64,000 bases of DNA from Sipunculus nudus (taxonomy: Eukaryota; Annelida; Sipuncula; Golfingiida; Sipunculidae): contig CM049310.1 of NCBI GenBank assembly GCA_026874595.1, forward strand, positions 1,426,001 through 1,490,000. Direction: 5' to 3'. The notes under the pieces were generated by a model, which worked only from the letters and a program-made list of their open reading frames with translations, did not search any database and was not told the origin of the DNA. Below are positions 27,797 through 61,400 of the stretch, in pieces. Both the position numbers and the translations under genes were made by a program. The stretch's first letter is position 1, and every line of letters begins with the position of its first letter.

Positions 27797-30232
27797 TCTC
27801 TGCTGTGATCGTTTCCGGAGAACTCCTCTGAGACTACTGGATGGATTTTTCCGAAACTTACACAAATTATCGGGTCACATGTGAACTGGTGCCTAACCAA
27901 GTGGCCTTGACTTCTGACCTTTCCTCTCTGCCCAGTATCCGTTTGTGCGTCTGTTTCCACACATAAACCCACATATCTCGGGAACTGTTTGACCGATCAG
28001 GAAAAAATTTTACACAAATGTAGCCCTTGGATAGCTTTATAACATACACAAAAAAGGTGGCACCACCTGCAGCCATTTTTGCAGTATCCATCTGTTTGTC
28101 TGCCTTTGGTTAAAATCACTCGTATCTCTGCAGTGGTTTGACTAATTCACCTAAAATTCGGCATGCGTATACATCCTAGATAGCTTTCTTGATTTTATGA
28201 CAGGTGGTGCCACCTATGTTCCATTAATGCTGCAGACATCCAAGCTCATATCTCAGGAGCCGTTTGACCAATAAGGAAAAATATTTTTTACACAAATGTA
28301 GCACTTGGAAAGCTTTATAACATACACAAAAATGGTGGCGCCACCTGCAGCCATTTTTGCACAGTGTCCATCTGTTTGTCTGCCTTGGGTTAAAATCACT
28401 CATATCTCTGCAGTGGTTTGACCAAATTACCTGAAATTTGGCATGCATATACATCCCGCATAGCTTTCTTGATTTTATGACAGGTGGCGCCACCTACATT
28501 CACGTTCATGCTGTAGACATCCATGCTTATATCTCCGGACTCGTTCGACCAATCAGGAAAAAAAATTTACACAAATGTAGCCCTTGGATAGCTTTATAAC
28601 ATACACAAAAATGGTGGCACCACCTGTCGCCATTTTTGCACAGCATCCATCTGTTTGTCTGCCTTTGGTTAAAATCACTCATATCTCTGCAGTGGTTTGA
28701 CTAATTCACCTAAAATTCGGCATGCGTATACATCTTAGATAGCTTTCTTGATTTTATGACAGGTGGCACCACCTATGTTCACGTTAATGCTGCAGACATC
28801 CAAGCTCGTATCTCAGGAACCATTTGACCAATAAGGAAAAATATTTTTTACACAAATGTAGCCCTTGGAAAGCTTTATAACATACACAAAAATGGTGGCG
28901 CCACCTGCAGCCATTTTTGCACAGTGTCCATCTGTTTGTCTGCCATGGGTTAAAATCACTCATATCTCTGCAGTGGTTTGACCAAATTACCTGAAATTTG
29001 GCATGCATATACATCCCGCATAGCTTTCTTGATTTTATGACAGGTGGCGCCACCTACATTCACGTTCATGCTGTAGACATCCATGCTTATATCTCCGGAC
29101 TCGTTCGACCAATCAGGAAAAAATTTTTACACAAATGTAGCCCTTGGATAGCTTTATAACATACACAAAAATGGTGGCACCACCTGCAGCCATTTTTGCA
29201 CAGCATCTATCTGTTTGTCTGCTGTGGGTTAAAATCACTCATATCTCTGCAGTGGTTTGACCAAATTACCTGTAATTTGGTATGCCTATACATCATGGAT
29301 AGCTTTCTTGATTTTATGACAGGTGGCGCCAGCTTCATTCACGTTCAGGCTGCAGACATTAATGCTTATAACTCCGGACTCGTTTGACCAATCAGGTAAA
29401 AAAATTACACAAATGTAGCCCTTGGATAGCTTTATAACATACACAAAATTGGTGGCGCCAGCTGCAGCCATTTTTGCACAGTGTCCATCTGTTTGTCTGC
29501 CATGGGTTAAAATCACTCATATCTCTGCAGTGGTTTGACCAAATTACCTGAAATTTGGCATGCATATACATCCCGCATAACTTTCTTTTTTTTTATGACA
29601 GGTGGCGCCAGCTTCATTTACGTTCACGCTGTAGACATTAATGCTTATATCTCCGAACTCGTTTGACCAATTAGGAAAAAATTTTTTTACACAAATGTAG
29701 CCCTTGGATAGCTTTATAACATACACAAAAATGGTGGCGCCACCTGCAGCCATTTTTGCACAGTGTCCATCTGTTTATCTGCCATGGGTGAAATCACTCA
29801 TATCTCTGCAGTGGTTTGACCAAATTACCTGAAATTTGGCATGCATATACATCCTGCATAGCTTTCTTGATTTTATGACAGGTGGCGCCACCTGCATTTA
29901 CGTTCACGCTGTAGACATCCATGCTTATATCTCCGGACAGCCATTTTTGCACAGCGTCCATCTGTTTGTCTGCTGTGGGATAAAATCACTCGCATCTCTG
30001 CAGTGGTTTGACTTTTCCACCTGAAATTTTGCATGTGTATACATCTTGGATAGTTTCTCGTTCTAATAACAGGTGGCGCCACCTACAATCATGTTTATGT
30101 GGCAGAGATCCATTCTAATATGTAACACATGTAACTCTATTTCCCCTGCCACTCAAACCATGCCTCACTTCACCCATCCCACTCTGATTTTGGCCGATAC
30201 ACTTGGTCGCTTGTTGACTACCCATATTCTAG
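27797..30232 (+). mobile_element. Composite element (copy C) with internal ~280-bp satellite, hairpin-CTAG 3' end
   Basis: Possible 5' start TCTCTGCTGTGATC at 27797. Seven or so internal units each carry CAGTGGTTTGACCAAATTAC and two GGTGGCGCCACC-type palindromes. The 3' end has stem TGGTC / GACTA (30204-30208 and 30216-30220), 8 bases, CTAG at 30229-30232. It interrupts a repeat whose intact relative is at 7019-7110, so both ends are roughly fixed by comparison. Confidence 0.65.
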
Positions 30233-40400: not shown

Positions 40401-43400
40401 CACCTCTGTTGTGTCAAACATGGGGGATTCCCTGAACTCTCTTTGATCGACCTTTTTACCTTACAGTAAAACCACCATGTGACATGAATGATCAGCTGAT
40501 CATCCATCCATTGACATCTAATGATTCTATCTAATTCTTTATTCAAATTTTTTTTTTATGAAACTATATAAAAATAAAAGTGTTGAGATCTAAAACAAAA
40601 CACCTTGAGGAATCAGAATACGCTTGTCAACTTGCCACATCAGGGCACACCTGCTTCGCAGATGACCACGTGCATGGTGGATTATAGTGTGCCTCACTGA
40701 TTACAGCGTGCTTTGCGGAAAGACACCCAAGGGACCTGTGCAGGGTGTGTATTAGTTACCGTATTTTTTCAAATAATTCAGAATCTGTTTTATTTCATAA
40801 ACGTAGTTTTCTGAAAATCTTAATTATTTTTTTTTACTGTGTAATTTTGAAGGAACAAACCTCGGAGCTTAGCTGTCAGGCTGGCGGTTTCATGCCGGTA
40901 GCCATCTTGCCTTGTTTTGGCATGACCGTACTGAATGGAACAACAAGAACTTTGCACCTTTTTTAGTGGTATCAAAGGAATCGCCATTAATGATATGAAT
41001 GTTGTACTATGGTGACTATTAAAATATATATATTGCCCAAAAAATGGTTTTCATATGATTGAATAGCATCCCAACATTAAAAAAAAAATGCAACTTAAAA
41101 ACCGTGGAAGACCCATTACCGCAAATCATCACCACGCGTAAAAAATTCGCAGCACCTGTTGACAATTGACTGTTTTGCCCTCCCATATTGCCCTTTACTA
41201 TGATTTATAAATATGTAATTATTGGCATTCTCAAAACATGGACAGAAAACGTACCTTTTATAATTCAGTATACCTATTCATACGATGTCATCTTTCTAAA
41301 AGTGCCAGTTTTATACTGATTGCAAGTGATATAACTATGCTGAATTCCCAAGTCATGCGATCTCAGCGTGCGTTACCTGAGTTTAAACGGGGCCACACAC
41401 ATACTAATTACTCTTTATTTCTGAAATAAAACTTTGTTATTATAATTATAATATAATGTTATATATATTATGTTATATTATTATAATATAATTGTTGTTC
41501 TTCCTTTTATTAAATTGTGTTATTGTAAACTGATTTTGTTCTTTTTGTCACAATTAACATTGTCTAACCATTCATGTGGAGTTTGTAACGGTCACTCATT
41601 TGGTTAAGGTGTGTTTTGATCTAGCGTACAAATTAATCATCAAAGAATTGTGATGAGAGCCTTGTGCCCCGGTGGTTTTCCTATGTAATTGATAATCAAA
41701 GGGATGTAGTCTCACGCATCGGTGGTCTTTCTTACACAAGCAATTATCGCTTTACCGCTCAGACTGCGACTCCTGGGAAGCGGCCCTCTCTGCACTACCT
41801 TGAGCAGTTCAGGAGTTTAACCTCGTTTCGTCTTTTGTTTTATTCAGCATGGAAATAAACTTTGATTTGGTCCTTGCATACAGAAATTTAGTTAATAATA
41901 GGCACAAAAATATTTATAAAGTTTAAGCAAAATCCCTTATAATATTTACTCCATGTGGCCTTATGAGCTGATCGGAAGTCGACAGTCAAGTATGGCGGCC
42001 TGAACGTGAGACTCGTCTATATAATGTACCATTATAATACAACGAAATCTCGTATTTAAAGATTATCTGAGGGGGAAAAACCTACAGAAATTGGTTTAAT
42101 CAAACAAACATGACAAATATTGGCACCTTGGTCTTATGTAAGGTAGATATATAAACTTCTGGCATTATTGCCCATCTATGAAACAACATCGATGGTCCAT
42201 GCTTCAGCAAAACTAATTTTACTCATTTTTTATTGTTTTATTTTGTAATTCCAAGATCATAATTATTTTTTTCTTTCAGAATTATTTGAAAAAAAATACG
42301 GTAATGTAATTAACCAATGCAGATCAAAGCCTGGCTTGCTTGTAATGGTCAAGTGCAGATACACACGGAGCTCCGCGCAAGGTGTGAGCCAGTGATGAAC
42401 TTATTGTCTGTAACCACTGGTGCCTAGATAAAGCTAGCTGACTTGGAGTTAGTAACCCGTGTCACAGATCACCACATCAACTGTTCAGTCACTGAAATGT
42501 GTCAGTTTTAAGCTACAGAGCCTCTCAGAGAAACTATACACCATGCATGTCCAATGTGTGGTGTCGCAGATTGAACCAAACAACATCATCCAAGGTACTG
42601 AGCATGATACACCACTTGCTGTTCAGTTTTGACCGGTATTCAATTTATTACATGTCAAATGAAAAATTACTGTCTCAGATAATTTACTAAGTTTAAACTA
42701 TCTCAGGATACGAACTGAATCAGACTAGATGGTAGCATCACTAATTTTTTAATTAGGTCAGAATGTAAAATTCAATATATGATTGTAGAATTTTTTACCC
42801 CTTTTTACAGATATTACAGTGTCACCTCTCTGAAAGACCACTTGTCAAATAAGACCACCTGATATCAAAACCACCCCTGAGGGACCTAAAAGCATTTACA
42901 CTGGTTATAACTGATCTGTCTCATAAGATCACCTGTGAATTAAGACAACTTTTGGACAGTAGAGTGGATGCCCTTTTAGACAGGTTTCACCATATTTTCA
43001 ATAAACCATGTTAGGATTAGTTAAATTACAAACCCTGGAGAGTAGCAGGTCTCCATTGTCATCAGAGATTTTAAGCAGATCTTCTATCTGAACACTTGAG
43101 TCGGTATCTTTGAGAGACAGGAGGGGAGTTTCCGTGGCAATAGCCAGCTCCCCACAGTACTTGCCAAGGTCATATAAAAGGTCAAGTAACTTGGTTGCAG
43201 AGTCTTGAATTGTAGCCTCGTTCTTCTCATCACAACCCTGAGGTGATAACAAATAAGACATTGTCATAAAACCATTGATGATCCTGAAACAACAGCATGT
43301 ATAACTCAAAATGTATTACATTTAAATATTTGAACTTCCTAAAATTAACCAGCCATAATTTACTTTAGCAGTACTGTACCATTTGCCTTGTAACATTTTT

Positions 43401-46400
43401 ATTTATCTTATGATTTATTTGCCTGGTGACCTAAGATTGTGGGTGTTGGTTGCCGTGACATATTAGATCCTGGGCAGTGGTTGTCTAGTTACATTTGATC
43501 ATAGGCACTGACTGCCATGACATGTAAGATTCTGGGCATTGGTTTCCTGGTAACATATTATCATTGTTATTCACTGCCAAGAAATACTGGTAATAGATCA
43601 AGGAAATCAATTGGTTTCAAGGTAACATTCAATCATGGGCACTGGTTGCAAGGTAACATCTAGGTGATTATGAGTAATGGTTGCCATGAAATATTAAATT
43701 CTGAGAACAAAATTCCAGGAATTATTTAATGAGTGCATGGCACTAGTTGTCATCGAATAGTCAATTTGGGCACTGGTTGCCATGTAACATTTAACCTATT
43801 GACCTTGAGAAAGCTGATGAGCTTTGTGCTGACACTAATGCTGGTGGTCCGGATGCTGGTGGTCAGACTGTTGACAAGCTCCGACTCCAGGGCGTCACTG
43901 AGCTTGTGTGACCAGATGGACGTGTGTGTGATGAGGAGCTCCAGGGAGGAGACTAGCTGTATGCTGGTGATGTGGTGACCCTCCAGCTCAACAGAATCTG
44001 TCAAAAATACAAAATTAAGGACAGGTCCATGACCTGCAAGTGGCACTACCCGTCACTGAATGAGGAAGCAGAGAACTACACACATCATATGGATGATATG
44101 TAACTGATTTATTACTTGTACCTAAGTGTTTTAGAAGTCAAGTTTTATATACAGGGGCTAGTAATAACCCGGAAGTCATAACATGAACATGAGATATCAA
44201 ACCTCACAGACTCTATCAAGATTTCAAAATTTCATGTTGCCTTGGAGACTGGCGGGTCCCAAACACAGATCTATCAGTTCCAAGGTTCAAGGCCTTAACA
44301 TAATACTTTGCCATATCAGCTCGGCACTCAGTGTACTACTCAGTGATATTGACAGGCACAATTCATGTGACATCACCCCTTCCAAAAGGAAATTGACAAG
44401 AATCACAAGGCGTGTCGTTTCACTATGTTCTGTAATGAACTGCCTATTAAAAAACTGACAAGAAAGTTGTTTCTGAATGTGTGAAGGTGCCAGAGCATGT
44501 GCACTTTCAAGTCTATAACTTGAAGAGTTTGTGAAAACAGAGTGACTGTACACAATTTATTGTGTTGATTACACATGTAGCTATTTAATAAAAATATTAT
44601 GAACCAGATTGTTGGCTATTGCTTTCGTATTAGCTTTGGAGAGATGTATCATATCGTGTACCTGTGGACCTCAGGATATATAAAAACAAGCAGTTAATAA
44701 CATGCTCACCTTGTTTTTGAGATCCCTCCTGTGTCTGTAAAACCTTGTCCAAAACATTGACTACCGCAAGTTTTAGTGCTTCACAATCCCTCAGCACATT
44801 ATCAGCCAATCCATACTGACTTTGAGAATCTAAAAAGATGAAAAATACAGAGTTAATAGTGTTTCTGTTATATCTTCTCATGTCAACAAATGTTTTAATT
44901 TAATTATTTAGTAGTTAAAAATATAATTTTGACAGTAAGGACCAATAAGAGCAAAACCTGGAAATTACTGAGCAAAGTCAAACATAAAGAGCGTAAAAGA
45001 ATCAGGACAATGACAAAATAGTCAATATTTTGAGGTGGTCTCTTAACCAAAGTTTTACTGTACACTTTACCTTTCATCCTGCTGAGAGTGAGACTGACAG
45101 CCTTGTAAACTTTACCTTTCATCCTGCTGAGAGTGACCAACAGGCTAGTTCACTTTACCTTTCATACTGCTGAGAGTGAGACTGACAGCCTTGTTCACTT
45201 TACCTTTCATCCTGCTGAGAGTGAGACTGACAGCCTTGTTCACTTTACCTTTCATCCTGCTGAGAGTGAGACTGACAGCCTTGTTCACTTTACCTTTCAT
45301 CCTGCTGAGAGTGAGACTGACAGCCTTGTTCACTTTACCTTTCATCCTGCTGAGAGTGAGACTGACAGCCTTGTTCACTTTACCTTTCATCCTGCTGAGA
45401 ATGAGACTGACAGCCTTGTTCACTTTACCTTTCATACTGCTGAGAGTGAGACTGACAGCCTTGTTCACTTTACCTTTCATCCTGCTGAGAGTGTGACTGA
45501 CAGCCTTGTTCACTTTTCCTTTCATACTGCTGAGAATGAGACTGACAGCCTTGTTCACTTTACCTTTCATACTGCTGAGAATGAGACTGACAGCCTTGTT
45601 CACTTTACCTTTCATCCTGCTGAGAGTGAGACCGACAGCCTTGTTCACTTTACCTTTCATACTGCTGAGAATGAGACCGACAGCCTTGTTCACTTTACCT
45701 TTCATACTGCTGAGAGTGAGACTGACAGCCTTGTTCACTTTACCTTTCATACTGCTGAGAGTGAGACTGACAGCCTTGTTCACTTTACCTTTCATACTGC
45801 TGAGAGTGAGACTGACAGCCTTGTTCACTTTACCTTTCATACTGCTGAGAGTGAGACTGACAGCCTTGTTCACTTTACCTTTCATACTGCTGAGAATGAG
45901 ACTGACAGCCTTGTTCACTTTACCTTTCATCCTGTTGAGAGTGTGATTGACAGCCTTGTTCACTTTACCTTTCATCCTGCTGAGAGTGTGACTGACAGCC
46001 TTGTTCACTTTACCTTTCATCCTGCTGAGACTGACAGCCTTGTTCACTTTACCTTTCATCCTGCTGAGAGTGAGACTGACAGCCTTGTTCACTTTACCTT
46101 TCATACTGCTGAGAGTGAGACTGACAGCCTTGTTCACTTTACCTTTCATACTGCTGAGAGTGAGACTGACAGCCTTGTTCACTTTACCTTTCATCCTGCT
46201 GAGAGTGAGACTGACAGCCTTGTTCACTTTACCTTTCATCCTGCTGAGAGTGACACACAGCCTTGTTCACTTTACCTTTCATCCTGCTGAGAGTGAGACT
46301 GACAGCCTTGTTCACTTTACCTTTCATCCTGCTGAGAGTGAGACTGACAGCCTTGTTCACTTTACCTTTCATACTGCTGAGAGTGAGACTGACAGCCTTG

Positions 46401-49400
46401 TTCACTTTACCTTTCATACTGCTGAGAGTGAGACTGACAGCCTTGGTCACTTTACCTTTCATACTGCTGAGAGTGAGACTGACAGCCTTGTTCACTTTAC
46501 CTTTCATCCTGCTGAGAGTGTGACTGACAGCCTTGTTCACTTTTCCTTTCATACTGCTGAGAATGAGACTGACAGCCTTGTTCACTTTACCTTTCATACT
46601 GCTGAGAATGAGACTGACAGCCTTGTTCACTTTACCTTTCATCCTGCTGAGAGTGAGACCGACAGCCTTGTTCACTTTACCTTTCATACTGCTGAGAATG
46701 AGACCGACAGCCTTGTTCACTTTACCTTTCATACTGCTGAGAGTGAGACTGACAGCCTTGTTCACTTTACCTTTCATACTGCTGAGAGTGAGACTGACAG
46801 CCTTGTTCACTTTACCTTTCATACTGCTGAGAGTGAGACTGACAGCCTTGTTCACTTTACCTTTCATACTGCTGAGAGTGAGACTGACAGCCTTGTTCAC
46901 TTTACCTTTCATACTGCTGAGAATGAGACTGACAGCCTTGTTCACTTTACCTTTCATCCTGTCGAGAGTGTGATTGACAGCCTTGTTCACTTTACCTTTC
47001 ATCCTGCTGAGAGTGTGACTGACAGCCTTGTTCACTTTACCTTTCATCCTGCTGAGACTGACAGCCTTGTTCACTTTACCTTTCATCCTGCTGAGAGTGA
47101 GACTGACAGCCTTGTTCACTTTACCTTTCATACTGCTGAGAGTGAGACTGACAGCCTTGTTCACTTTACCTTTCATACTGCTGAGAGTGAGACTGACAGC
47201 CTTGTTCACTTTACCTTTCATCCTGCTGAGAGTGAGACTGACAGCCTTGTTCACTTTACCTTTCATCCTGCTGAGAGTGACACACAGCCTTGTTCACTTT
47301 ACCTTTCATCCTGCTGAGAGTGAGACTGACAGCCTTGTTCACTTTAACTTTCATCCTGCTGAGAGTGAGACTGACAGCCTTGTTCACTTTACCTTTCATA
47401 CTGCTGAGAATGAGACTGACAGCCTTGTTCACTTTACCTTTCATACTGCTGAGAGTGAGACTGACAGCCTTGGTCACTTTACCTTTCATACTGCTGAGAG
47501 TGAGACTGACAGCCTTGGTCACTTTACCTTTCATACTGCTGAGAGTGAGACTGACAGCCTTGTTCACTTTACCTTTCATACTGCTGAGAGTGAGACTGAC
47601 AGCCTTGTTCACTTTACCTTTCATACTGCTGAGAGTGAGACTGACAGCCTTGTTCACTTTACCTTTCATACTGCTGAGAGTGAGACTGACAGCCTTGTTC
47701 ACTTTACCTTTCATACTGCTGAGAGTGAGACTGACAGCCTTGTTCACTTTACCTTTCATACTGCTGAGAATGAGACTGACAGCCTTGTTCACTTTACCTT
47801 TCATACTGCTGAGAGTGAGACTGACAGCCTTGTACATTTTACCTTTCATCCTGCTGAGAGTGAGACTGACAGCCTTGTTCACTTTACCTTTCATCCTGCT
47901 GAGAATGAGACTGACAGCCTTGTTCACTTTACCTTTCATCCTGCTGAGAGTGAGACTGACAGCCTTGTTCACTTTACCTTTCATACTGCTGAGAGTGAGA
48001 CTGACAGCCTTGTTCACTTTACCTTTCATACTGCTGAGAGTGAGACTGACAGCCTTGTTCACTTTACCTTTCATCCTGCTGAGAGTGAGACTGACAGCCT
48101 TGTTCACTTTACCTTTCATCCTGCTGAGAGTGACACACAGCCTTGTTCACTTTACCTTTCATCCTGCTGAGAGTGAGACTGACAGCCTTGTTCACTTTAC
48201 CTTTCATCCTGCTGAGAGTGAGACTGACAGCCTTGTTCACTTTACCTTTCATACTGCTGAGAGTGAGACTGACAGCCTTGTTCACTTTACCTTTCATACT
48301 GCTGAGAGTGAGACTGACAGCCTTGGTCACTTTACCTTTCATACTGCTGAGAGTGAGTCTGACAGCCTTGGTCACTTTACCTTTCATACTGCTGAGAGTG
48401 AGACTGACAGCCTTGTTCACTTTACCTTTCATACTGCTGAGAGTGAGACTGACAGCCTTGTTCACTTTACCTTTCATACTGCTGAGAGTGAGACTGACAG
48501 CCTTGTTCACTTTACCTTTCATACTGCTGAGAGTGAGACTGACAGCCTTGTTCACTTTACCTTTCATACTGCTGAGAGTGAGACTGACAGCCTTGTTCAC
48601 TTTACCTTTCATACTGCTGAGAATGAGACTGACAGCCTTGTTCACTTTACCTTTCATACTGCTGAGAGTGAGACTGACAGCCTTGTACATTTTACCTTTC
48701 ATCCTGCTGAGAGTGAGACTGACAGCCTTGTTCACTTTACCTTTCATCCTGCTGAGAATGAGACTGACAGCCTTGTTCACTTTACCTTTCATCCTGCTGA
48801 GAGTGAGACTCACAGCCTTGTTCACTTTACCTTTCATCCTGCTGAGAGTGAGACTGACAGCCTTGTTCACTTTACCTTTCATATTGCTGAGAGTGAGACT
48901 GACAGCCTTGTTCACTTTACCTTTCATACTGCTGAGAGTGAGACTGACAGCCTTGTTCACTTTACCTTTCATACTGCTGAGAGTGAGACTGACAGCCTTG
49001 TTCACTTTACCTTTCATCCTGTTGAGAGTGTGACTGACAGCCTTGTTCACTTTACCTTTCATCCTGCTGAGAGTGAGACTGACAGCCTTGTTCACATTAC
49101 CTTTCATACTGTTGAGAGTGAGACTGACAGCCTTGTTCACTTTACCTTTCATCCTGCTGAGAGTGAGACTGACAGCCTTGTTCACTTTACCTTTCATCCT
49201 GCTGAGAGTGAGACTGACAGCCTTGTTCACTTTACCTTTCATACTGCTGAGAGTGAGACTGACAGCCTTGTTCACTTTACCTTTCATACTGCTGAGAATG
49301 AGACTGACAGCCTTGTTCACTTTACCTTTCATCCTGCTGAGAGTGTGGCTGACAGCCTTGTTCACTTTACCTTTCATACTGCTGAGAGTGAGACTGACAG

Positions 49401-52400
49401 CCTTGTTCACTTTACCTTTCATACTGCTGAGAGGGAGACTGACAGCCTTGTTCACTTTACCTTTCATCCTGCTGAGAGGGAGACTGACAGCCTTGTTCAC
49501 TTTACCTTTCATCCTGCTGAGAATGAGACTGACAGAGTTGTTCACTTTACCTTTCATCCTGCTGAGAGTGAGACTGACAGCCTTATTCACTTTACCTTTC
49601 ATCCTGCTGAGAGTGAGACTGACAGCCTTGTTCACTTTTCCTTTCATCACGCTGAGAGTGAGACTGACAGCCTTGTTCACTTTACCTTTCATCCTGCTGA
49701 GAGTGAGACTGACAGCCTTGTTCACTTTACCTTTCATCCTGCTGAGAGTGAGACTGACAGCCTTGTTCACTTTACCTTTCATACTGCTGAGTGAGACTGG
49801 CAGCCTTGCTCACTTTACCTTTCATACTGCTGAGAGTGAGACTGGCAGCTTGTTCACTTTACCTTTCATACTGCTGAGAGTGAGACTGACAGCCTTGTTC
49901 ACTTTACCTTTCATCCTGTTGAGAGTGTGACTGACAGCCTTGTTCACTTTACCTTTCATCCTGCTGAGAGTGAGACTGACAGCCTTGTTCACTTTACCTT
50001 TCATACTGTTGAGAGTGAGACTGACATCCTTGTTCACTTTACCTTTCATCCTGCTGAGAGTGAGACTGACAGCCTTGTTCACTTTACCTTTCATCCTGCT
50101 GAGAGTGAGACTGACAGCCTTGTTCACTTTAACTTTAATCCTGCTGAGAGTGAGACTGACAGCCTTGTTCACTTTACCTTTCATACTGCTGAGAGTGAGA
50201 CTGACAGCCTTGTTCACTTTACCTTTCATACTGCTGAGAGTGAGACTGACAGCCTTGTTCACTTTACCTTTCATACTGCTGAGAGTGAGACTGACAGCCT
50301 TGTTCACTTTACCTTTCATACTGCTGAGAGTGAGACTGACAGCCTTGTTCACTTTACCTTTCATCCTGCTGAGAGTGAGACTGACAGCCTTGTTCACTTT
50401 ACCTTTCATCCTGCTGAGAGGGAGACTGACAGCCTAGTTCACTTTACCTTTCATCCTGCTGAGAGGGAGACTGACAGCCTTGTTCACTTTACCTTTCATC
50501 CTGCTGAGAGGGAGACTGACAGCCTTGTTCACTTTACCTTTCATCCTGCTGAGAATGAGACTGACAGCCTTGTTCACTTTACCTTTCATCCTGCTGAGAG
50601 TGAGACTGACAGCCTTGTTCACTTTACCTTTCATCCTGCTGAGAGTGAGACTGGCAGCCTTGTTCACTTTACCTTTCATCCCGCTGAGAGTGAGACTGGC
50701 AGCCTTGTTCACTTTACCTTTCATCCTGCTGGATGTGAGACTGACAGCCTTGTTCACTTTACCTTTCATCCTGCTGAGAGTGAGACTGACAGCCTTGTTC
50801 ACTTTACCTTTCATCCTGCTGAGAGTGAGACTGACAGCCTTGTTCACTTTACCTTTCATACTGCTGAGAGTGAGACTGACAGCCTTGTTCACTTTACCTT
50901 TCATACTGCTGAGAGTGAGACTGACAGCCTTGTTCACTTTACCTTTCATCCTGCTGAGAGTGAGACTGACAGCCTTGTTCACTTTACCTTTCATCCTGCT
51001 GAGAGTGAGACTGACAGCCTTGTTCACTTTACCTTTCATCCTGCTGAGAGTGAGACTGACAGCCTTGTTCACTTTACCTTTCATCCTGCTGAGAGTGAGA
51101 CTGACAGCCTTGTTCACTTTACCTTTCATCCTGCTGAGAGTGAGACTGACAGCCTTGTTCACTTTACCTTTCATCCTGCTGAGAGTGAGACTGACAGCCT
51201 TGTTCACTTTACCTTTCATCCTGCTGAGAGTGAGACTGACAGCCTTGTTCACTTTACCTTTCATCCTGCTGAGAGTGAGACTGACAGCCTTGTTCACTTT
51301 ACCTTTCATACTGCTGAGAGTGAGACTGACAGCCTTTTACAGTTTACCTTTCATCCTGCTGAGAGTGAGACTGACAGCCTTGTTCACTTTACCTTAAATC
51401 CTGCTGAGAGTGAGACTGACAGCCTTGTACTCTTTACCTTTCATCCTGCTGAGAGTGAGACTGACAGCCTTGTACACTTTACCTTTCATCCTGCTGAGAG
51501 TGAGACTGACAGCCTTGTTCACTTTACCTTTCATCCTGCTGAGAGTGAGACTGACAGCCTTGTACACTTTACCTTTCATCCTGCTGAGAGTGAGACTGAC
51601 AGCCTTGTTCACTTTACCTTTTATCCTGCTGAGAGTGAGACTGACAGCCTTTTACAGTTTACCTTTCAACCTGCTGAGAGTGAGACTGACAGCCTTGTTC
51701 ACTTTACCTTTCATACTGCTGAGAGTGAGACTGACAGCCTTGTACACTTTACCTTTCATCCTACTGAGAGTGAGACTGACAGCCTTGCTGCAGAATGCCC
51801 AGGGTTGCATGATCTTTGGTTTTAGTGGTGCTGCAGGCTTCAGTGACAGCTTCAGGGGGCTGGGCTGTAAATGAGGGGTATGTGTCGAGGTTACTTGTGA
51901 GAAGACTTTTGTGTTTCTGGGTGGGGGAGACTGGCCGATCTGCTTGGAGTGTGTGGTTGATGTGTCCCGTTCTGGGGGAGAATGATGACCTGACGGATAG
52001 AGAGAAAAGAACATAAAATACTCAAACAAAATTATATGATTTATTATATATATCACTGTTCAGATAAACTAGAATTGATTTGAACTCATTCATAGTTTAC
52101 ACATGCACATTTTATAGTGTTCTCATCATATTATATAACCTTGTTGTCTAAATAAATTTGAGTGAAAATACAAGCAAAATCATACCTAGTCCAAAGCTCA
52201 ATTGATTCATTATTACATAAAACACCAGATATTTTTTAAATGAGTTTTCCATTATATGAAATTTAACCCCTTCAATTTTGACAAATTTAGATTTTACCGT
52301 ATACACATAATGACATTATACAAGGCAGTTTTCATGCTTAAGATAGTTTTCATGACATACAAAAATTTACACATACCTGTCCTATATATTATTCACTCTT

Positions 52401-55400
52401 ATCTATCATATACTCTTATATACATTTATGTTAAACATGGTTTAATTATGCACTAATTAATTATCTTTAATACAAATTAACACTATACATACCTGACAAG
52501 GAATTTATTACAACTGAGCAAACCAATCATTATCTATTAAATCTAATAAATATACCAAGAATGAATTATTTGAAAGGGTTACTGCATCATAACACATAAA
52601 AATACCATCAAACTGCAGTATTATATATTTGATCCACAAAGATATTTTTTTTGGTCAGTACCATTTACAATACCTCTCAGGTATTTTTCTGGCAAAAATG
52701 GTTCCTTCCCATTTGCAGGGGTGGAAGCCAGGAAGGATCCACTTTCTTTGGCAGGGGTGGTTGGTGTTGAAAGACCTGACATAATAAACTGGCTTTCTGC
52801 TGGAAGCTCTATACTTCCTGAGCCATGAAATGATCTGGATCTGAAAATACAAACAAAGAGGGAAAGTATAACTGCCAGGGTGTGGATCCTAAGGGTAACA
52901 GTCAGGGTATGTTGTTTTACAATGACTAAGCATACACGGGGTGATTTGGTCATTCTTTCAATTCTGGCTCTTTAATCAACAATTTGATACCAATAAAGTA
53001 GTCATTTACCAGTCAAGTGGTGACACCTTAATCAACATTTGCTTTCCTTTTCTTTTAGTTTAGCTAAAGATATTTGCTCTCTAGCAAGTCCCCTAAAAGA
53101 TCTAAATATATTTACTCAAAATGATCAAATATTAGTTATGCAAACATGCTAAGTATTTTTTTAAAACATTTTGTGGAGGAACTGAGGGTAGTAGGACAGA
53201 AAATAATTTAAATAATAAAAGTTTGAACTGCAAAACAATTCTGTTTAATGTTTAACTGCCATGCAATGCAGTCAACACAACACATACAAACACACATCAA
53301 CAGCAACTATGAAACAAGAGATTAGCAACTCTTAAGAGTCCAGCTGAAACCTCCAGCCTGCAAAAGTAAAAACAGTCGGAAATAGATATATATTGCTTCA
53401 GACCTGTAGACTTGTACCCAGCTTAAATTTATTTCCTGATGGAATAGAGCAGAAACCAGTTTGAATTTAAACTGCTTTACTGATGGCTGCTAAATTGCCC
53501 TTCTTCAAATTAGATTTTTTTCAGTTTAAGGAAATCTTAGAGAGGAATTTTCATAAACAAGCAATAAAAAATCTCATAATATACACTGAATGTTTAAGGT
53601 ACTCTATATTTACTCACCTGTGTTTCTGTAGTCCTGTGTCTTTCACTGGGTACTCCTCCTCCAAGTTGTTTGAATGGTTAACCTCTGAACTTTTGACCTT
53701 GGGTTTATCTGACCCTAGCAGTTTGTCCTTGAGACTCGAAACTAACTCGCCATTGGTCAGAATGTTATTGCTCCCTTCCTTTGTCCAGGTATCAGAGGGG
53801 TCGTAATAAACTTCATCACTTATAATACTGGTCTCAGACTGTAATATACAACAGGTTTACATGTAATAATTACTAGTCAGTATATATATACATGCAAACA
53901 TGCTGGGGTGAAAATGTGTACCACAGACATGCTCAATTTAAAGTTAAGGTTTACACATTCACAAATTAGTTTATGGATGATATTTCTGGTTTGGATAGTC
54001 AGATTGGCTTCCAGCTTGATTTATTTATGACCCATCACTTAAGTAAGAAACAGTTTGACTTTCAGGGTCCAGAGGTAAATGGTAAAGGTCAGAGGAGCCA
54101 CAAGTTTAAAAGGTTGTGGATGCAGTCTGTAAATCAATCTTTTTGTCCCAAACTTTCCATCTTTCATACATGGTATACTTGCCCAAAGTGGAAGAAATCT
54201 GTAGATTTTGAAGTAACCTGGTCAGAGGTCTAGGTCACTGGACCCACCATTTTTTTAAAAGACTGTTACAATAATCTTAATGCTGCAAGTTCAGGGATAA
54301 TAAGTTCCCAGATTTTTTAATCACAAGGTCACTGGTTAAGGCTACAGGACATCATTCTGAAGAATTTCTTGAAAAATATCCTTAAAGACAAATTCAGCTG
54401 AGCGTTGAGACCAATTGTTCCCTAATTGAAGGATTCTTCCTGTCCATATTTCATCCCTTTTTATCCACAGGAGATCCCATTCCCCATATAAATCTAAAGA
54501 ACAGTGAGTGGCCCTTTGTTTCAAAGGCCTAATGTCCTACTATGAGTGGTTGTAAAGGGGCATAATCAGCTATAAAGTATGTTGAATTAACAGGAATAAT
54601 AGCTTTTTCTCTTTGAAATAAATTTGTACCTGCCAAAATATTGCCCTGAAACCATTTGCTTACTCCTGTAAATGAGTGTTAAAAACAGTGAACCAGGCCC
54701 AATCAAATGGGTCAACATAAACACAGCGTGTGCATCACCAGGCCACAACATGTGTGAATCAGGAGATGCCCTAACTGACTTAGCCCAAAAAATGTAATAC
54801 ATGTTCCGGCTGTGTGAAACACCGCCTGTTGAGGTTCACAATCGGTCCTCTGGTGACGCGGCCTTGTTATGGTAAACAGACACACATGGACTGTGTTTAC
54901 CAACCATAAAATAAACAGCTGTATACAAGGTAATGAGACTGTGTGTTGGGATGGTTTTGCAGGGAGCAATCTGAACTGAAAGTGTGAAAGAATAGGCATT
55001 ATTTATCTAATGATTATGTCACTTTAATTATTATAAAAAATATCTAAACAAAATACTAGTAAAATATAAACCCAACTTGGAGCGGATTTTACATGAAAAT
55101 AATTATGTAGGAAAAAATTAAGGAACTCAATCACATTATACATGTACATCTGGTACTGATTAAAAGATAAAAAGATAACCCTGAAGGCATCTCAATATAT
55201 TTTACATCTCCCTGGGTTCATTCAAACATCAAAAAGTACTCTCTGTACAAGGTATATTTAGGACCTGCCAATATTAATCAGTGCACAAAAAAATCAATGT
55301 GTGTTATACTGATATCCCCTATGATATTGTGTGCATTTTAAATACTTTGATTGGCTTACTCAAGAATATTCATAAACATACAAGCCCAAAGGACTGAAGA

Positions 55401-58400
55401 AAATAAACACATTTCCCTTGTGGTATCTGCTAGATCCACACGCTTGTTTAATGCATTAATTCACCAGCTGTCGACCCATAATAACTTTCATTCAGAGATG
55501 TAATGTAGCCATTATATTTAAATTCTATAAATCTGATACAATAATTACCATAGTCATGCATCTTTAAACACTATAGATGACTGATAGATCAAATCTGTTA
55601 GAAAGATTTACCATAATATCAGTAAAAAATTCTCATAATACATGGAGATATACATTCTACAGCCAGTTTTAATATAAGAATACAATCTGTACCAGAATCA
55701 TGACAAGGTTTATTATGATCAGCCACTCCTTACCTTTCTTGAGTCCATATTATCATGATTAGATAAATTTCTACTTTTCCTAAATTTACAAATAAACTGA
55801 AGAACTGTAACTTTGTATTCTCCACTCACACTCTCCACTCACATAATGTTCTCATAATAGCCATGTATAAGTGAAGCTGAAATATCAGTGTATTTAATAA
55901 CAGTTGAGTGTAGCAGTGATGAAAACAGCCAACACAAAGCCTTACAAATGATATTGACAAAGGAAACCACAAACCTGCTGGACTATTTGACCTTTCTGTC
56001 CTTGCACAATAACTCTTTCTTCCTCTCAAATCACTCCTCTAGGCCTACGGCACCATGATTAATGCATGATTAATACATGTGATCGAGAATGGGCCTGGAT
56101 TGACCAGAATGGCTAATGATATACGCTGCACAGAGCAACTGACCAGACACATTCACAAATGAACAATGTCCCAGCCTTCCACTGTGGAGTGGTGCTGTAA
56201 ACCTCCAAAATCAGGCACACCGTGAACCATCGTTGGTACACGCCGGGAAACACAGTCTTGATGAGAATATGGAATGCCCTGTCACATCACATGGATAAAC
56301 ACTGCCTGTGATATTTATAAGCGAGCGATATAACTGGAGAGCATCAGAACCAAAATGAGCACAGACCGGTCCCTCAGAGAACTGTGTATACAGTGACCAT
56401 ACTTCCAGTGTGACTGCCAACCCATGTTGGTATCCTATAGTTAAGGGCCCCAGGAGAAATAATTAATAGAGGGAATGTATTGACTTTCTATCTGGTAGGG
56501 TCGACTGAGCATCACTATCCACAGCCATCCATGATATCACCAAATCATGGGTGCACAGATGTCTGTGGCCATTGTGAGAAGTTTTACAGGACCATCCGTA
56601 TTGGCTTTCTATTATGCTTGTTATCTCGGCATTCTCCTTACAGCGCAATGATTCATCATCCAATAGATTCCATCAATTATTAGTTCATTATGCTCCGAGG
56701 CTGAGCCAGAAGCGGCTGCAAAAACCAGAGCTCTCACAAAGAACATCAACAGCCTCTTAACAGAATAATCAGCTGACCAGATATTGAATTTCAACTTTGT
56801 ACTGAATGTTTCATTTATGTGATGCCTTTAATTAAGTGTAACATCACCACAGTAAAAGCTCTCAGTAGACCACCCAACAGACAACACCACTGTAATCTCT
56901 AAGACAAAACATGGACCTAGCACAAGCAAAGAAAAAAGATCCTTAGTACAATACAAATATAAAACATATATCAAATAACTGCTCTGTCATAATATTTCAT
57001 ATTTAAGGAACAAGTCTTCCAGAGCAGATAAGAGAAATATGTTGAACTCCACCTGAACATTTCATTTAATGCCTGTCATTCACCTGCCGTTTCTGCATGA
57101 TTGATGTGATTTCTGGCTAACTCTGACGGTGTGTGCACACGTTAATGAACTGTAGTTTATTCTTGGCAGGAAATGTTTTTAAAACACCTCTGTAATGGAT
57201 GTCTGAGCTTGTTTAACTACAACCTATTATTTAACATGGTACATGCTGACACATGTTAGTTAACATGGTACATGCTGACACCTGTTAGTAAACATGGTAC
57301 ATGCTGACACCTGTTAGTTAACATGGTACATGCTGACACCTGTTAGTTAACATGGTACATGCTGACACCTGTTAGTTAACATGGTATGCTGACACCTGTT
57401 AGTTAACATGGTACATGCTGACACCTGTTAATTAACATGGTACATGCTGACACCTGTTAGTAAACATGTTACATGCTGACACCTGTTAGTTAACATGGTA
57501 CATGCTGACACCTGTTAGTTAACATGGTACATGCTGACACCTGTTAGTAAACATGTTACATGCTGACACCTGTTAGTTAACATGGTACATGCTGACACCT
57601 GTTAGTTAACATGGTACATGCTGACACCTGTTAGTTAACATGGTACATGCTGACACCTGTTAGTTAACATGGTACATGCTGACACCTGTTAGTAAACATG
57701 TTACATGCTGACACCTGTTAGTTAACATGGTACATGCTGACACCTGTTAGTTAACATGGTACATGCTGACACCTGTTAGTTAACATGGTACATGCTGACA
57801 CCTGTTAGTAAACATGTTACATGCTGACACCTGTTAGTTAACATGGTACATGCTGACACCTGTTAGTTAACATGGTACATGCTGACACCTGTTAGTAAAC
57901 ATGTTACATGCTGACACCTGTTAGTTAACATGGTACATGCTGACACCTGTTAGTTAACATAGTACATGAGCCTATGCTGACAAATGGGAAAAACATATAA
58001 CCTACATTGGTTGCATTTGTGCAGAAGTTGAAAGTTACCTTGTTGCAAAAAGCCAATTGCAAAACTGATTCATCTGACTAACAACTACATTGTATATGTC
58101 CTGTTTAATGTGTTTGGATTACTTTGTGACCCCTAGCCAACCACCACATGATAATTAAACAAGTGGATATAAACAAATCACACATGGTGGGATTAGCTCC
58201 TATTTTTATAAAAGGTTCAAGGGATTATCCTAAGTTTAAAGGCACCATATATCAGAATAGGCCCCTTTAAGGACAACTTGTGTAAAGTATACAGGATTAC
58301 TTCATGATATGTAATGTAGACAGGCTTACATCATGATATGTAATGTAGACAGGCTTACATCATGATATGTAATGTAGACAGGCTTACATCATGATATGTA

Positions 58401-61400
58401 ATGTAGACAGGCTTACATCATGATATGTAATGTAGACAGGCTTACATCATGATATGTAATGTAGACAGGCTTACATCATGATATGTAAAATAGACAGGCT
58501 TACATCATGACATGTAATGTAGACAGGCTTACATCATGATATGTACAGTAGACAGGCTTACATCATGATATGTAATGTAGACAGGCTTACATCATGATAT
58601 GTACAGTAGACAGGCTTACATCATGATATGTAATGTAAACAGGCTTACATCATGATATGTAATGTAGACAGGCTTACATCATGATATGTAATGTAGACAG
58701 GCTTACATCATGATATGTAAAGTAGACAGGCTTACATCATGATATGTAATGTAGACAGGCTTACATCATGATATGTAATGTAGACAGGCTTACATCATGA
58801 TATGTAATGTTGACAGGCTTACATCATGATATGTAATGTAGACAGGCTTACATCGTGATATGTAATGTAGACAGGCTTACATCATGATATGTAATGTAGA
58901 CAGGCTTACATCATGATATGTAATGTAGACAGGCTTACATCATGATATGTAATGTAGACAGGCTTACATCATGATATGTAATGTAGACAGGCTTACATCA
59001 TGACATGTAATGTAGACAGGCTTACATCATGACATATAAAGTAGACAGGCTTACATAATGACATGTAATGTAGACAGGCTTACATCATGATATGTACAGT
59101 AGACAGGCTTACATCATGATATGTAATGTAGACAGGCTTACATCATGATATGTACAGTAGACAGGCTTACATCATGATATGTAATGTAAACAGGCTTACA
59201 TCATGATATGTAATTTAGACAGGCTTACATCATGATATGTAATGTAGACAGGCTTACATCATGATATGTAAAGTAGACAGGCTTACATCATGAAATGTAA
59301 ATTAGACAGGCTTACATCATGATATGTAATGTAGACAGGCTTACATCATGATATGTAATGTAGACAGGCTTACATCATGATATGTAATGTAGACAGGCTT
59401 ACATCATGATACGTAATGTAGACAGGCTAACATCATGATATGTAATATAGACAGGCTTACATCATGATATGTAATGTAGACAGGCTTACATCATGATATG
59501 TAAAGTAGACAGGCTTACATCATGATATGTAAATTAGACAGGCTTACATCATGATATGTAATGTAGACAGGCTTACATCATGATATGTAATGTAGACAGG
59601 CTTACATCATGATATGTAATGTAGACAGGCTTACATCATGATACGTAATGTAGACAGGCTAACATCATGATATGTAATATAGACAGGCTCACATCATAAT
59701 ATGTAGAGCCTGTCAGGTAGATTATATCATGAACAGCACTACTGTGTTTCCTCAGGTAAATAATAAAACTTACCATAAAGTATAACTAATAAAAAATTTC
59801 AGAAAGTTCTAAGATTTCACAGAGGGTATTTGAGGAGCTGTAATTTAGGTAATTATTAACAAAGCATATTTTTAAATCAATTTAAAAGCCGAGATGAAAA
59901 AGAATAAGTAGAAACAAAAGTATATGCCTGATGCTGATGTACGAGTAACTGATGGCACAAAACAAACTGTTCATGCTGTGAAGGAGCTGTGAAAATCCAT
60001 ATACATGTCACCCCTAAGGTCAATTTATGAAACTTATGAACAATTTCCTTTCAATTTCATGCTCAATATCTGCTCACATTTGACATCTTTAACAGGCTGT
60101 AAATTGTATATCTTTAGGTCAATCAAACTTAGCATCAGATGAATAGTTCCTGGCAAGACTGATATGCAAAGATTTATTAATCTGGTTTACACAATTTCAA
60201 TGCATAATTCGGTGTACAGTGTAATTTTAAACCTGTTAATCTTTTAGCTAATTTTCAGGTTTTCTCGGTAATCTTTTAGCTCTTTAAAGTCTTTCTTTCT
60301 ATTCTTCTCTGTCATATATCGTCTCCCCTCAGATGAAAATAATTGAACAAAACTTCATACAATATTGATTGAACATCCAGGTTCAATCAATCTGGATCTG
60401 GTTCAACCTATAATGCCCAGGAATCTGGCAATTTCATAAGGACAGAGATAGTCACAGGGTCACTTACTTCATCAAGTGGTATCCTTCTTTTACACCTCAC
60501 AATGTTTGATACAGGAGATTTTTGATACAGGAGAATTTCTCCCTACTGTATATTAGGTTTATTTACTGTGTAATCACATAATCCAGATTGAATAACTACA
60601 CATTTACTGTATAAATTAAAGGTATGTGGTCATTAATTATCCTCTTACCTACAGTGAAAGTGGAGCAAGAAATACTGGTTACAATTAATTTTGCCTTCTG
60701 TTGGCCCCAAAATTATACAAATATTTAATTTTGGTGACAGTTTAAAAAAATTATATCCTAGACTTATTTCCAATTAAACTTTCATTGATGAATATGATCT
60801 GTTAGGGCAATATAGCATATTTTTATTTCAAGAATTAAAAAGTATGAGCAATTTTAATGGCAGTAAGATAATTTTATTTCGACTAGCTGGTCTGATGTAT
60901 TTACCACAGACTCTCTGGTACACAGCTCCCTTACTCCAGTGGAAATGAAGCCTGGTGATAGTTTCCCCAGCTTGTGTGACATCACTGTGGTTACTCAAAT
61001 GAGGTTCCAATTAGTTTTTTTTTACAGCCATAGAAACAAATATAACATTAATATTACCAGACAAACAGTAACATCATATTATATCCCTGGCTGATTTCCC
61101 ACAGGAATGTTTCATAAACATCCATACTCCTTAATTAGAGCAGATGTGGAAAACAAGTAAGTGTTCATTTTTCTGCAGCCAGATGGCACCACCTTCCAAA
61201 CTTCCTGGATGTGGTATTCATTATACTGCAGCAAACCTTGCAAACTTCCTGGATGTGGTGTTCATTATACTGCAGCCAGATGGCACCACCTTCCAAACTT
61301 CCTGGATGTGGTGTTCATTATACTGCAGCAAACCTTCCAAACTTCCTGGATGTGGTGTTCATTATACTGCAGCAAACCTTCCAAACTTCCTGGATGTGGT

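Follow-up and report, generated by a model that had tools for sequence, protein, structure and literature searches.

The 6,923-nt intron that follows the third of six predicted exons in a KIF14-like gene consists, for 97% of its length, of tandem copies of its own 5' splice junction. We propose that this array is a junction-seeded minisatellite, or 'mirage', that it has probably been evolving neutrally and that the first of its many donors still ends the exon. Arrays of this kind have been described before, in a small number of genes of lancelets and humans; this one is very large, and similar arrays recur at further genes in its genome. As far as can be read from the DNA, the array shows no sign of function.

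The features discussed below lie in the window, by which we mean the whole 64,000-nt stretch that was analysed:

53618..53838, minus strand: exon before 52674-52840, with a short stretch like a paralogue exon (exon chain, sequence comparison)
52674..52840, minus strand: preceding exon, ends in phase 1 (exon chain)
51753..51989, minus strand: exon 5' of the array, 237 nt, its last 34 nt being unit 1 (splice sites, six-exon chain)
44830..51752, minus strand: intron, 6,923 nt, 97% array (splice sites, array limits, arithmetic)
45059..51787, minus strand: 45-bp tandem array, 150 units, 149 of them intronic (TRF, unit walk, donor count)
51663..51752, minus strand: stretch added by donor 3, 90 nt; donor 2 adds 45 (in-silico splicing)
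51652..51654, minus strand: in-frame TAA behind donor 3 (in-silico splicing, unit analysis)
approx. 45147..47291, minus strand: recent block duplication, 23 units, ~1,027 bp (unit-type lag analysis)
44710..44829, minus strand: next exon, in which the KIF14 four-helix bundle begins (PF23313 with the next two exons)
43804..43997, minus strand: next exon, four-helix bundle (PF23313, exon chain)
43034..43237, minus strand: next exon, four-helix bundle, 3' end tentative (PF23313, exon chain)

The array repeats a predicted exon-intron junction

TRF reports a tandem array at 45059-51787 on the minus strand with a period of 45, 150.0 copies and 96% matches, and a unit-by-unit walk from 51786 to 45060 also gave 150 units, which belong to 43 distinct types and measure 45 nt (142 units), 43 nt (five), 39 nt (two) or 44 nt (one). 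An earlier reading made from the sequence alone had counted about 149 copies; this agrees with our count, as one of the 150 copies is the exon end itself and 149 are therefore intronic. Unit 1 spans the predicted boundary, with the last 34 nt of exon 51753-51989 and 11 nt of the intron, and the exon end is identical to the unit consensus at 33 of 34 nt. The AG/GT splice signal is carried by nearly all units (AAAGGT in 144 of 150). Exact matches to AAAGGTAAAG are present in 139, which bears out the earlier statement that almost every unit has the same donor (AAAG/GTAAAG, exact in 139 of 150). The intronic part of the array, 45059-51752, is 6,694 nt long, compared with 6,923 nt for the whole intron (44830-51752).

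A 26-base core of the array, searched with at most two mismatches, has 138 matches in the window against none in 100 shuffles, and the 138 matches found genome-wide at this threshold are the same 138, with none elsewhere in the 1.43-Gb assembly. An introner-type dispersed intron element is ruled out, as the core copies are confined to one locus of the assembly. Within the array, a lag analysis of unit types revealed a block duplication of 23 units (~1,027 bp), in which stretches of 10 and of 8 units recur exactly at lag 23; a satellite-like higher-order structure was also considered, and the unit types gave block duplications only. Given such block duplications in one assembly, it is plausible that the length of the array differs between individuals.

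The host gene is KIF14-like

By its predicted protein, the host gene is KIF14-like. Exon 44710-44829 and the next two exons, when joined, match the KIF14 four-helix bundle (PF23313) with an E value of 2.1e-15 over profile positions 3-140 of 141, whereas the same exons scored singly gave a weak match or none. No kinesin motor exon is among the matches listed between the gene and its paralogue (122 of 225 and then 22 of 22 candidates scored). Exon 51753-51989 is entered and left in phase 1, has the acceptor ccgtcag/GTC and the donor TGAAAG/gtaaag, and fits into a chain of six exons that is free of stops and consistent in phase, with predicted exon limits set by us; the exon and donor named in the sequence-only reading (GAAAG/GTAAAG) thus stand as predicted. 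A short stretch of exon 53618-53838 resembles a paralogue exon that has a donor array of its own (19 residues, 58% identity, E 0.001). Elsewhere in the assembly, matches to COX1 were on small contigs and look bacterial, and a search for haemocyanin gave no match, with its controls silent as well.

Junction arrays at other genes and the direction of copying

In the paralogue, a 57-bp unit is repeated 62 times after the homologue of exon 44710-44829, with AAAGGTGAG occurring 55 times, and a 41-bp unit is repeated 42 times after the exon resembling 53618-53838, with ACTGTAAGT occurring 36 times. Further donor junction arrays were found at CHD1 (L135; 51 bp x 8.1), KIF9 (L069; 32 bp x 4.5), a kinesin neck (L085; 86 bp x 6) and a myosin (L111; 35 bp x 2). 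At CHD1 and KIF9, the exon end included in the unit encodes conserved protein sequence, which indicates that at these two genes the copying went from exon to intron. The sequence-only reading derived the array from a tandem duplication across the exon-intron boundary, and the analogy with CHD1 and KIF9 supports this; at exon 51753-51989 itself the direction of copying stays unproven, because no homologue of this exon was found in a search that included 30 kb of the paralogue region.

The lack of a homologue would also suit the reverse order of events, in which the intron already held an ordinary minisatellite and the exon was later lengthened into it, so that the present exon end would be derived from the array. 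In favour of this, arrays with a period of at least 15 make up 24% of the window outside this array. However, the exon came first at CHD1 and KIF9, and by our reading the next exon is entered in phase 1 in the paralogue as well. We consider the reverse order improbable and prefer a minisatellite seeded by the junction.

Reading frame, donors and selection

In-silico splicing with donors 1 to 7 gave 0, 0, 0, 1, 1, 1 and 1 stops, and donors past 7 take in the same stop. Donors 1 to 3 keep the frame, with 0, 15 or 30 extra residues. The stop had previously been placed at 51652 and two or three donors had been thought productive; it is the TAA at 51654-51652, and as it sits behind donor 3, three donors are productive. 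The accompanying claim that any later donor keeps the phase is true as far as the 44-nt unit at 49896 (~42 units) but not beyond, where 43-nt units shift the frame again. The acceptor-like CTCTCAG is present in 123 of the 150 units, as had been noticed, but it is weak, since equally high scores are reached by 14.7% of the AGs that lie outside the array. The array donor has A at +5 and G at +6 and scores 4.2 compared with 6.4 for the donor of the next exon, by a general scoring matrix.

The distinct variants seen in the minus-strand gene frame are 7 synonymous and 31 non-synonymous, with 29 and 103 possible, and thus the excess of synonymous variants of a coding VNTR is absent. The two open plus-strand frames have similarly neutral ratios, so that none of the three frames open in the consensus shows a sign of purifying selection by this measure. 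The donor window has five distinct variants over nine positions compared with 34 over 35 positions elsewhere (position 27 excluded), a difference that points in the direction of constraint on the donors but is not significant (Poisson 0.13).

These results bear on the idea that alternative donors insert zero, one or two fifteen-residue units into the linker that precedes the four-helix bundle and that the resulting mix of isoforms matters. The unit is 15 codons long, donors 1 to 3 keep the frame, the AG/GT of 144 units is the dual-specific motif described for UBC (PMC10809524), and the 57-bp unit of the paralogue corresponds to 19 codons and is open for about 14 units. On the other hand, the unit shows no purifying selection, a stop follows behind donor 3 and the acceptor context is weak; in addition, only three of the seven donor arrays seen have units that are multiples of three (45, 57 and 51 bp), whereas the other four do not (41, 32, 86 and 35 bp). 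The variable insertion of 15-residue units suggested by the sequence-only reading is not supported by these findings, and we regard it as unlikely. A role of the donors in misleading the spliceosome (decoys) or in binding U1 (a platform), which would slow splicing or shield the long intron from premature polyadenylation, is more doubtful still: AAAG/GT in 144 of 150 units within 6.7 kb would favour it, but the donor is a middling one, its preservation is not significant, and the decoy suggested earlier finds no support in units that lack purifying selection. A repeat protein encoded by the array, whichever strand is read, is hardly credible, because the open frames of up to 837 aa (plus strand) and 566 aa (minus strand) follow from a 45-mer that is free of stops and the variant ratios are neutral in all three frames; annotators should be wary of such by-products.

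We therefore return to the junction-seeded minisatellite and propose the following course of events. A short tandem duplication would first have taken in 34 bases from the exon end together with the first 11 of the intron, and the copies would then have grown to 150 units by slippage or unequal exchange and by the block duplications of about 1 kb that are seen in the array. As the outermost copy is kept intact, the gene would still end its exon at 51753 and join it to 44829, with which phase and frame agree. With donors that are near-identical, the choice of donor 1 would have to be made through exon definition, starting at the acceptor at 51989, and through the length of the exon. Donors 2 and 3 are perhaps in low-level use, adding 15 or 30 residues, whereas transcripts spliced from donor 4 onward would include the stop and, from what is established for such transcripts, be expected to undergo nonsense-mediated decay. 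The array itself would evolve like neutral intron sequence.

Are splice junctions preferred sites?

By eye, which is less objective, junction-spanning arrays were seen at 8 of 137 sampled exon loci, four at donors and four at acceptors. The outcome was much less favourable in an automatic scan of the first 108 loci, which took the 24 nt around each predicted boundary and allowed up to four mismatches within 600 bp: it found repeats at none of 65 donors and at two of 84 acceptors (L079, L081), and at none of 48 exon middles and 30 of 741 intron points. The scan missed L069 and L096 (second exons), L085 (donor under the score cut-off of 3), L111 (other donor picked) and L044; L135 was outside the scan and was added later. 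In the same 108 loci, coverage by arrays of period at least 15, measured from the exon core, amounts on the donor side to 1.9% within 10 nt of the exon and 1.8-3.3% deeper, and on the acceptor side to 2.8% within 10 nt and 3.1-7.6% deeper; coverage thus indicates no enrichment near junctions.

In a near-end test of arrays with a period of at least 25, the exon-side end lies inside the exon in 8 of 30 (p = 0.0002 under a 40-nt null and 0.0095 under one of 75 nt). If L069 and L096 are dropped, the count is 6 of 28 (p = 0.005 and 0.06), and without L079 as well, an exon of the KIF14-like paralogue, it is 5 of 27 (p = 0.018 and 0.14). The boundaries for this test were set after the arrays had been seen, some from a match edge (L061) or nominally (L096). 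The near-end test favours junction enrichment, whereas the coverage test does not.

Discussion

With about 144 near-identical donors behind one exon, nature has set up an experiment on the choice of a 5' splice site in a case where the sequence gives no guidance. Junction arrays recur at CHD1, KIF9, the kinesin neck and the two KIF14-like genes, and this recurrence suggests a route to intron growth and new splice sites, as proposed for lancelets at small copy numbers (PMC3087553). It is possible, although we hold this tentatively and with more doubt than confidence, that splice junctions are preferred seeds for minisatellites in this genome, that introns repeatedly lengthen by amplifying their own donor or acceptor with a few to about 40 exon bases, to as many as 150 copies, that the spliceosome has to pick one among dozens of near-identical sites and that the copies can serve as a source of new exons and introns.

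The closest known systems are the lancelet mirages, which PMC3087553 and PMC3902484 describe as minisatellite-like tandem duplications of 5' and 3' exon-intron boundaries in Adh3, BflGb6, BflGb9, TnC and PGBD5, with units of 10 to 160 bp and no apparent disturbance of regular splicing (Adh3 data, globin RT-PCR). The KIF14-like array resembles them in a unit that spans the boundary and carries the splice signal. However, BflGb6 has six and three units in two haplotypes compared with 150 copies here and 62, 42 and 22 at other sites; in lancelets splicing and allele length were examined, whereas our array is known from the sequence of one assembly and its boundary is predicted.

The minisatellite of human IFI6 (6-16) likewise provides multiple splice donors at an exon end, and two downstream units are used (Turri 1995, as cited in PMC4526556). 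Donor use is thus reported there, whereas in the KIF14-like array the donors are predicted and the frame allows donors 1 to 3. The array also differs from IFI6 in the length and number of its units. The IFI6 unit is reportedly only 12 bp long and present in fewer copies.

The dual-specific AGGT splice sites repeated along polyubiquitin UBC give a variable number of units (PMC10809524), and the KIF14-like array shares the AG/GT at a fixed place in each unit; however, UBC units are coding ubiquitin monomers, whereas here the stop at 51654-51652 closes the array behind donor 3 and no coding constraint is seen, so that an array of the UBC type, with every unit coding and in frame, was rejected. 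Earthworm metallothionein minisatellites were set aside as a parallel as well, as they are described as intronic rather than as junction arrays. In the open-licence literature, surveyed mainly by title and abstract, we found no boundary array of such copy number and none beyond lancelets and mammals. Variable tandem repeats at exon-intron boundaries in human segmental duplications, which can create new introns, are similar in being minisatellites at such boundaries, but differ from the KIF14-like array with their ~30-bp units, a mean of four copies, young paralogues and transcript support (PMC2812944).

A junction minisatellite in a KIF14-like gene

For the KIF14-like gene of the window, the limits of six exons were set in this analysis; their phases match and the joined frame contains no stops.

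Predicted exons of the KIF14-like window gene
53618-53838, minus strand, exon
52674-52840, minus strand, exon
51753-51989, minus strand, exon
44710-44829, minus strand, exon, KIF14 four-helix bundle together with the next two
43804-43997, minus strand, exon, KIF14 four-helix bundle
43034-43237, minus strand, exon, KIF14 four-helix bundle

The last three exons match the four-helix bundle when joined, with E 2.1e-15 over positions 3-140 of the 141-position profile, and give a weak or no profile match when scored singly. As no motor exon was found upstream among the matches listed in a kinesin motor profile search, the gene could be a duplicate without a motor, or its motor may have been missed.

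Tandem Repeats Finder (TRF) and a unit walk placed 150 copies of a 45-bp unit on the minus strand from 51786 to 45060, with the consensus AAGGCTGTCAGTCTCACTCTCAGCAGGATGAAAGGTAAAGTGAAC (position 27 is G or T), which account for 6,694 of the 6,923 bases of their intron. Unit 1 consists of the tail of exon 51753-51989 and the first 11 bases of the intron, and 33 of its 34 exon bases match the consensus. AAAGGTAAAG is exact in 139 units, while AAAGGT is present in 144 and CTCTCAG in 123. A dispersed element is excluded, as all 138 matches to a 26-base core (at most 2 mismatches) in the 1.43-Gb assembly lie inside the window, making the array a single-locus minisatellite. Unit types recur 23 units apart, where a fraction of 0.19 of the rarer types is identical and runs of 10 and of 8 units match exactly. 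Recurrence is weaker at a spacing of 19 units (0.10; one run of 9). These patterns indicate that the array grew partly by blocks of about 1 kb. Arrays of this kind are expected to differ between individuals.

Splice sites and selection

When spliced in silico, the frame stays open with the exon's own donor and those of the next two units, giving exons of 237, 282 and 327 nt. The stop at 51654-51652 is taken in with every one of donors 4 to 7, as it must be with any donor beyond 7; the sequence-only reading had allowed two or three productive donors, and the number is three. Its claim that any later donor keeps phase needs to be restricted, since 44- and 43-nt units shift the reading frame from 49896 onward. 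According to a splice-site matrix, the unit donor scores 4.2, a value reached by 1.2% of GTs outside the array (n=3,548), compared with 6.4 for the donor of the next exon. The acceptor-like CTCTCAG scores 0.9, reached by 14.7% of AGs outside the array (n=3,338); the predicted acceptor at 44829 has a score that 0.18% of them reach.

In the exon frame, the distinct unit variants comprise 7 synonymous, 31 non-synonymous and 2 stop changes (possible 29, 103 and 3). On the other strand, the two frames that are open also give neutral ratios of synonymous to non-synonymous variants, 8:32 (possible 27:106) and 12:26 (possible 39:91); long open frames arise in the array because the unit is stop-free. 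Within the donor window, 5 distinct variants fall on 9 positions, fewer but not significantly so than the 34 on 35 positions in the rest of the unit (without position 27; Poisson 0.13). With these values, the array acts like neutral intron sequence. We conclude that it is a real, very large junction minisatellite, most likely neutral and probably with the first donor in regular use.

Junction arrays at other genes

A KIF14-like paralogue lies further along the same contig (C5), with its bundle near 1,641-1,642 kb; motor exons at 1,702-1,722 kb probably belong to it. It carries two donor arrays directly behind exons, and the second of these exons also has a 43-bp array ending at its acceptor.

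Donor arrays of the paralogue
L001:5011-8549 (C5:1643011-1646549), 57 bp x 62 with AAAG|GTGAG (55 exact), behind the exon homologous to 44710-44829
L002:1526-3245 (C5:1649526-1651245), 41 bp x 42 with ACT|GTAAGT (36 exact), behind the exon resembling 53618-53838

Junction arrays recur in this genome. Among 137 sampled 1.5-kb loci, 108 around kinesin or myosin exons and 29 around SNF2 exons, eight have junction-spanning arrays as judged by eye. L048, whose array begins 6 nt into the intron, and L128, which has donor-like units and an unknown exon, were left out of this count.

Sampled loci with junction-spanning arrays
L069, donor side, 32 bp x 4.5
L085, donor side, 86 bp x 6
L111, donor side, 35 bp x 2
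L135, donor side, 51 bp x 8.1 (803-1224, orientation of gene)
L044, acceptor side, 43 bp x 2.4
L079, acceptor side, 61 bp x 8.6
L081, acceptor side, 31 bp x 21.9
L096, acceptor side, 49 bp x 7

L135 is a CHD1 exon ending in KSLPAK, followed by about 8 copies of its end together with its strong donor; the repeated sequence in the intron is AAATCACTGCCAGCCAAG|GTAAGA, and its copies vary. The exon end, LLRRVKKDVEKSLPAK, is identical in its residues to a CHD1 entry of the Protein Data Bank (9ear, E 7.7e-16), and the alignment of the L069 exon GETNRAISSHILNAQSSRSHCIFTIYIE with KIF9 (3nwn) reaches its last residue. At these two loci the intron copies must therefore stem from the exon; by analogy, exon 51753-51989 would have seeded its array in the same direction. 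For L085, a kinesin neck exon, the best Protein Data Bank matches end before the exon end.

Only one test points to enrichment of arrays at junctions. Counting arrays of period at least 25 whose exon-side end lies inside the exon, it gave 8 of 30 (p 0.0002 or 0.0095, depending on which of two nulls, 40 nt and 75 nt, is used). Without two second exons (L069, L096) this became 6 of 28 (p 0.005 or 0.06), and 5 of 27 (p 0.018 or 0.14) when L079 was also removed, which is not independent of the paralogue because it is a motor exon of that gene. An automatic scan of the first 108 loci for repeats of predicted-boundary sequence found them at none of 65 donors and at 2 of 84 acceptors (L079 and L081), compared with 30 of 741 intron points; it missed the arrays of L044, L069, L085, L096 and L111. 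Array coverage showed no rise at donors and was lower near acceptors.

Arrays of this kind are already known. Published work describes lancelet "mirages", minisatellite-like duplications of exon-intron boundaries in Adh3, globins, troponin C and PGBD5; splicing is reported to be undisturbed and, at Adh3, somatic length change is reported (PMC3087553, PMC3902484). Also described are boundary repeats in human (PMC2812944), several donors supplied by a minisatellite in human IFI6 (cited in PMC4526556), and UBC, where the AGGT of each unit can serve as donor or as acceptor (PMC10809524). The window array shares with the mirages a unit that spans a predicted exon-intron boundary and carries an AG/GT splice signal. 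Its copy number, and the recurrence of such arrays at conserved genes within one genome, add to its interest.

Other repeats and genes

Further minisatellites of the window lie at 9458-10146, 17774-18852, 19414-20146, 57222-57968, 58281-59705, 61191-61635 and 62314-63398; leaving the main array aside, 24% of the window consists of arrays of period at least 15. Repeats that are related to one another, about 270-340 bp long and containing GGTGGCGCCACC, lie at 16371-17748 and 27973-29938 in the window, and near the paralogue at L002:5297-8343. In a myosin gene (C2:44849337-44852248), four matches fall on the same part of the profile (about 109-153) and may be mutually exclusive exons. Small contigs, for example C60, C61, C62, C66, C72, C74, C89, C101, C123 and C130, have SNF2 or COX1 genes that lack introns and look bacterial, several nearly equal in score, and are perhaps symbiont strains within the assembly; the two matches on C130 lie inside open frames some 5,000 aa long.
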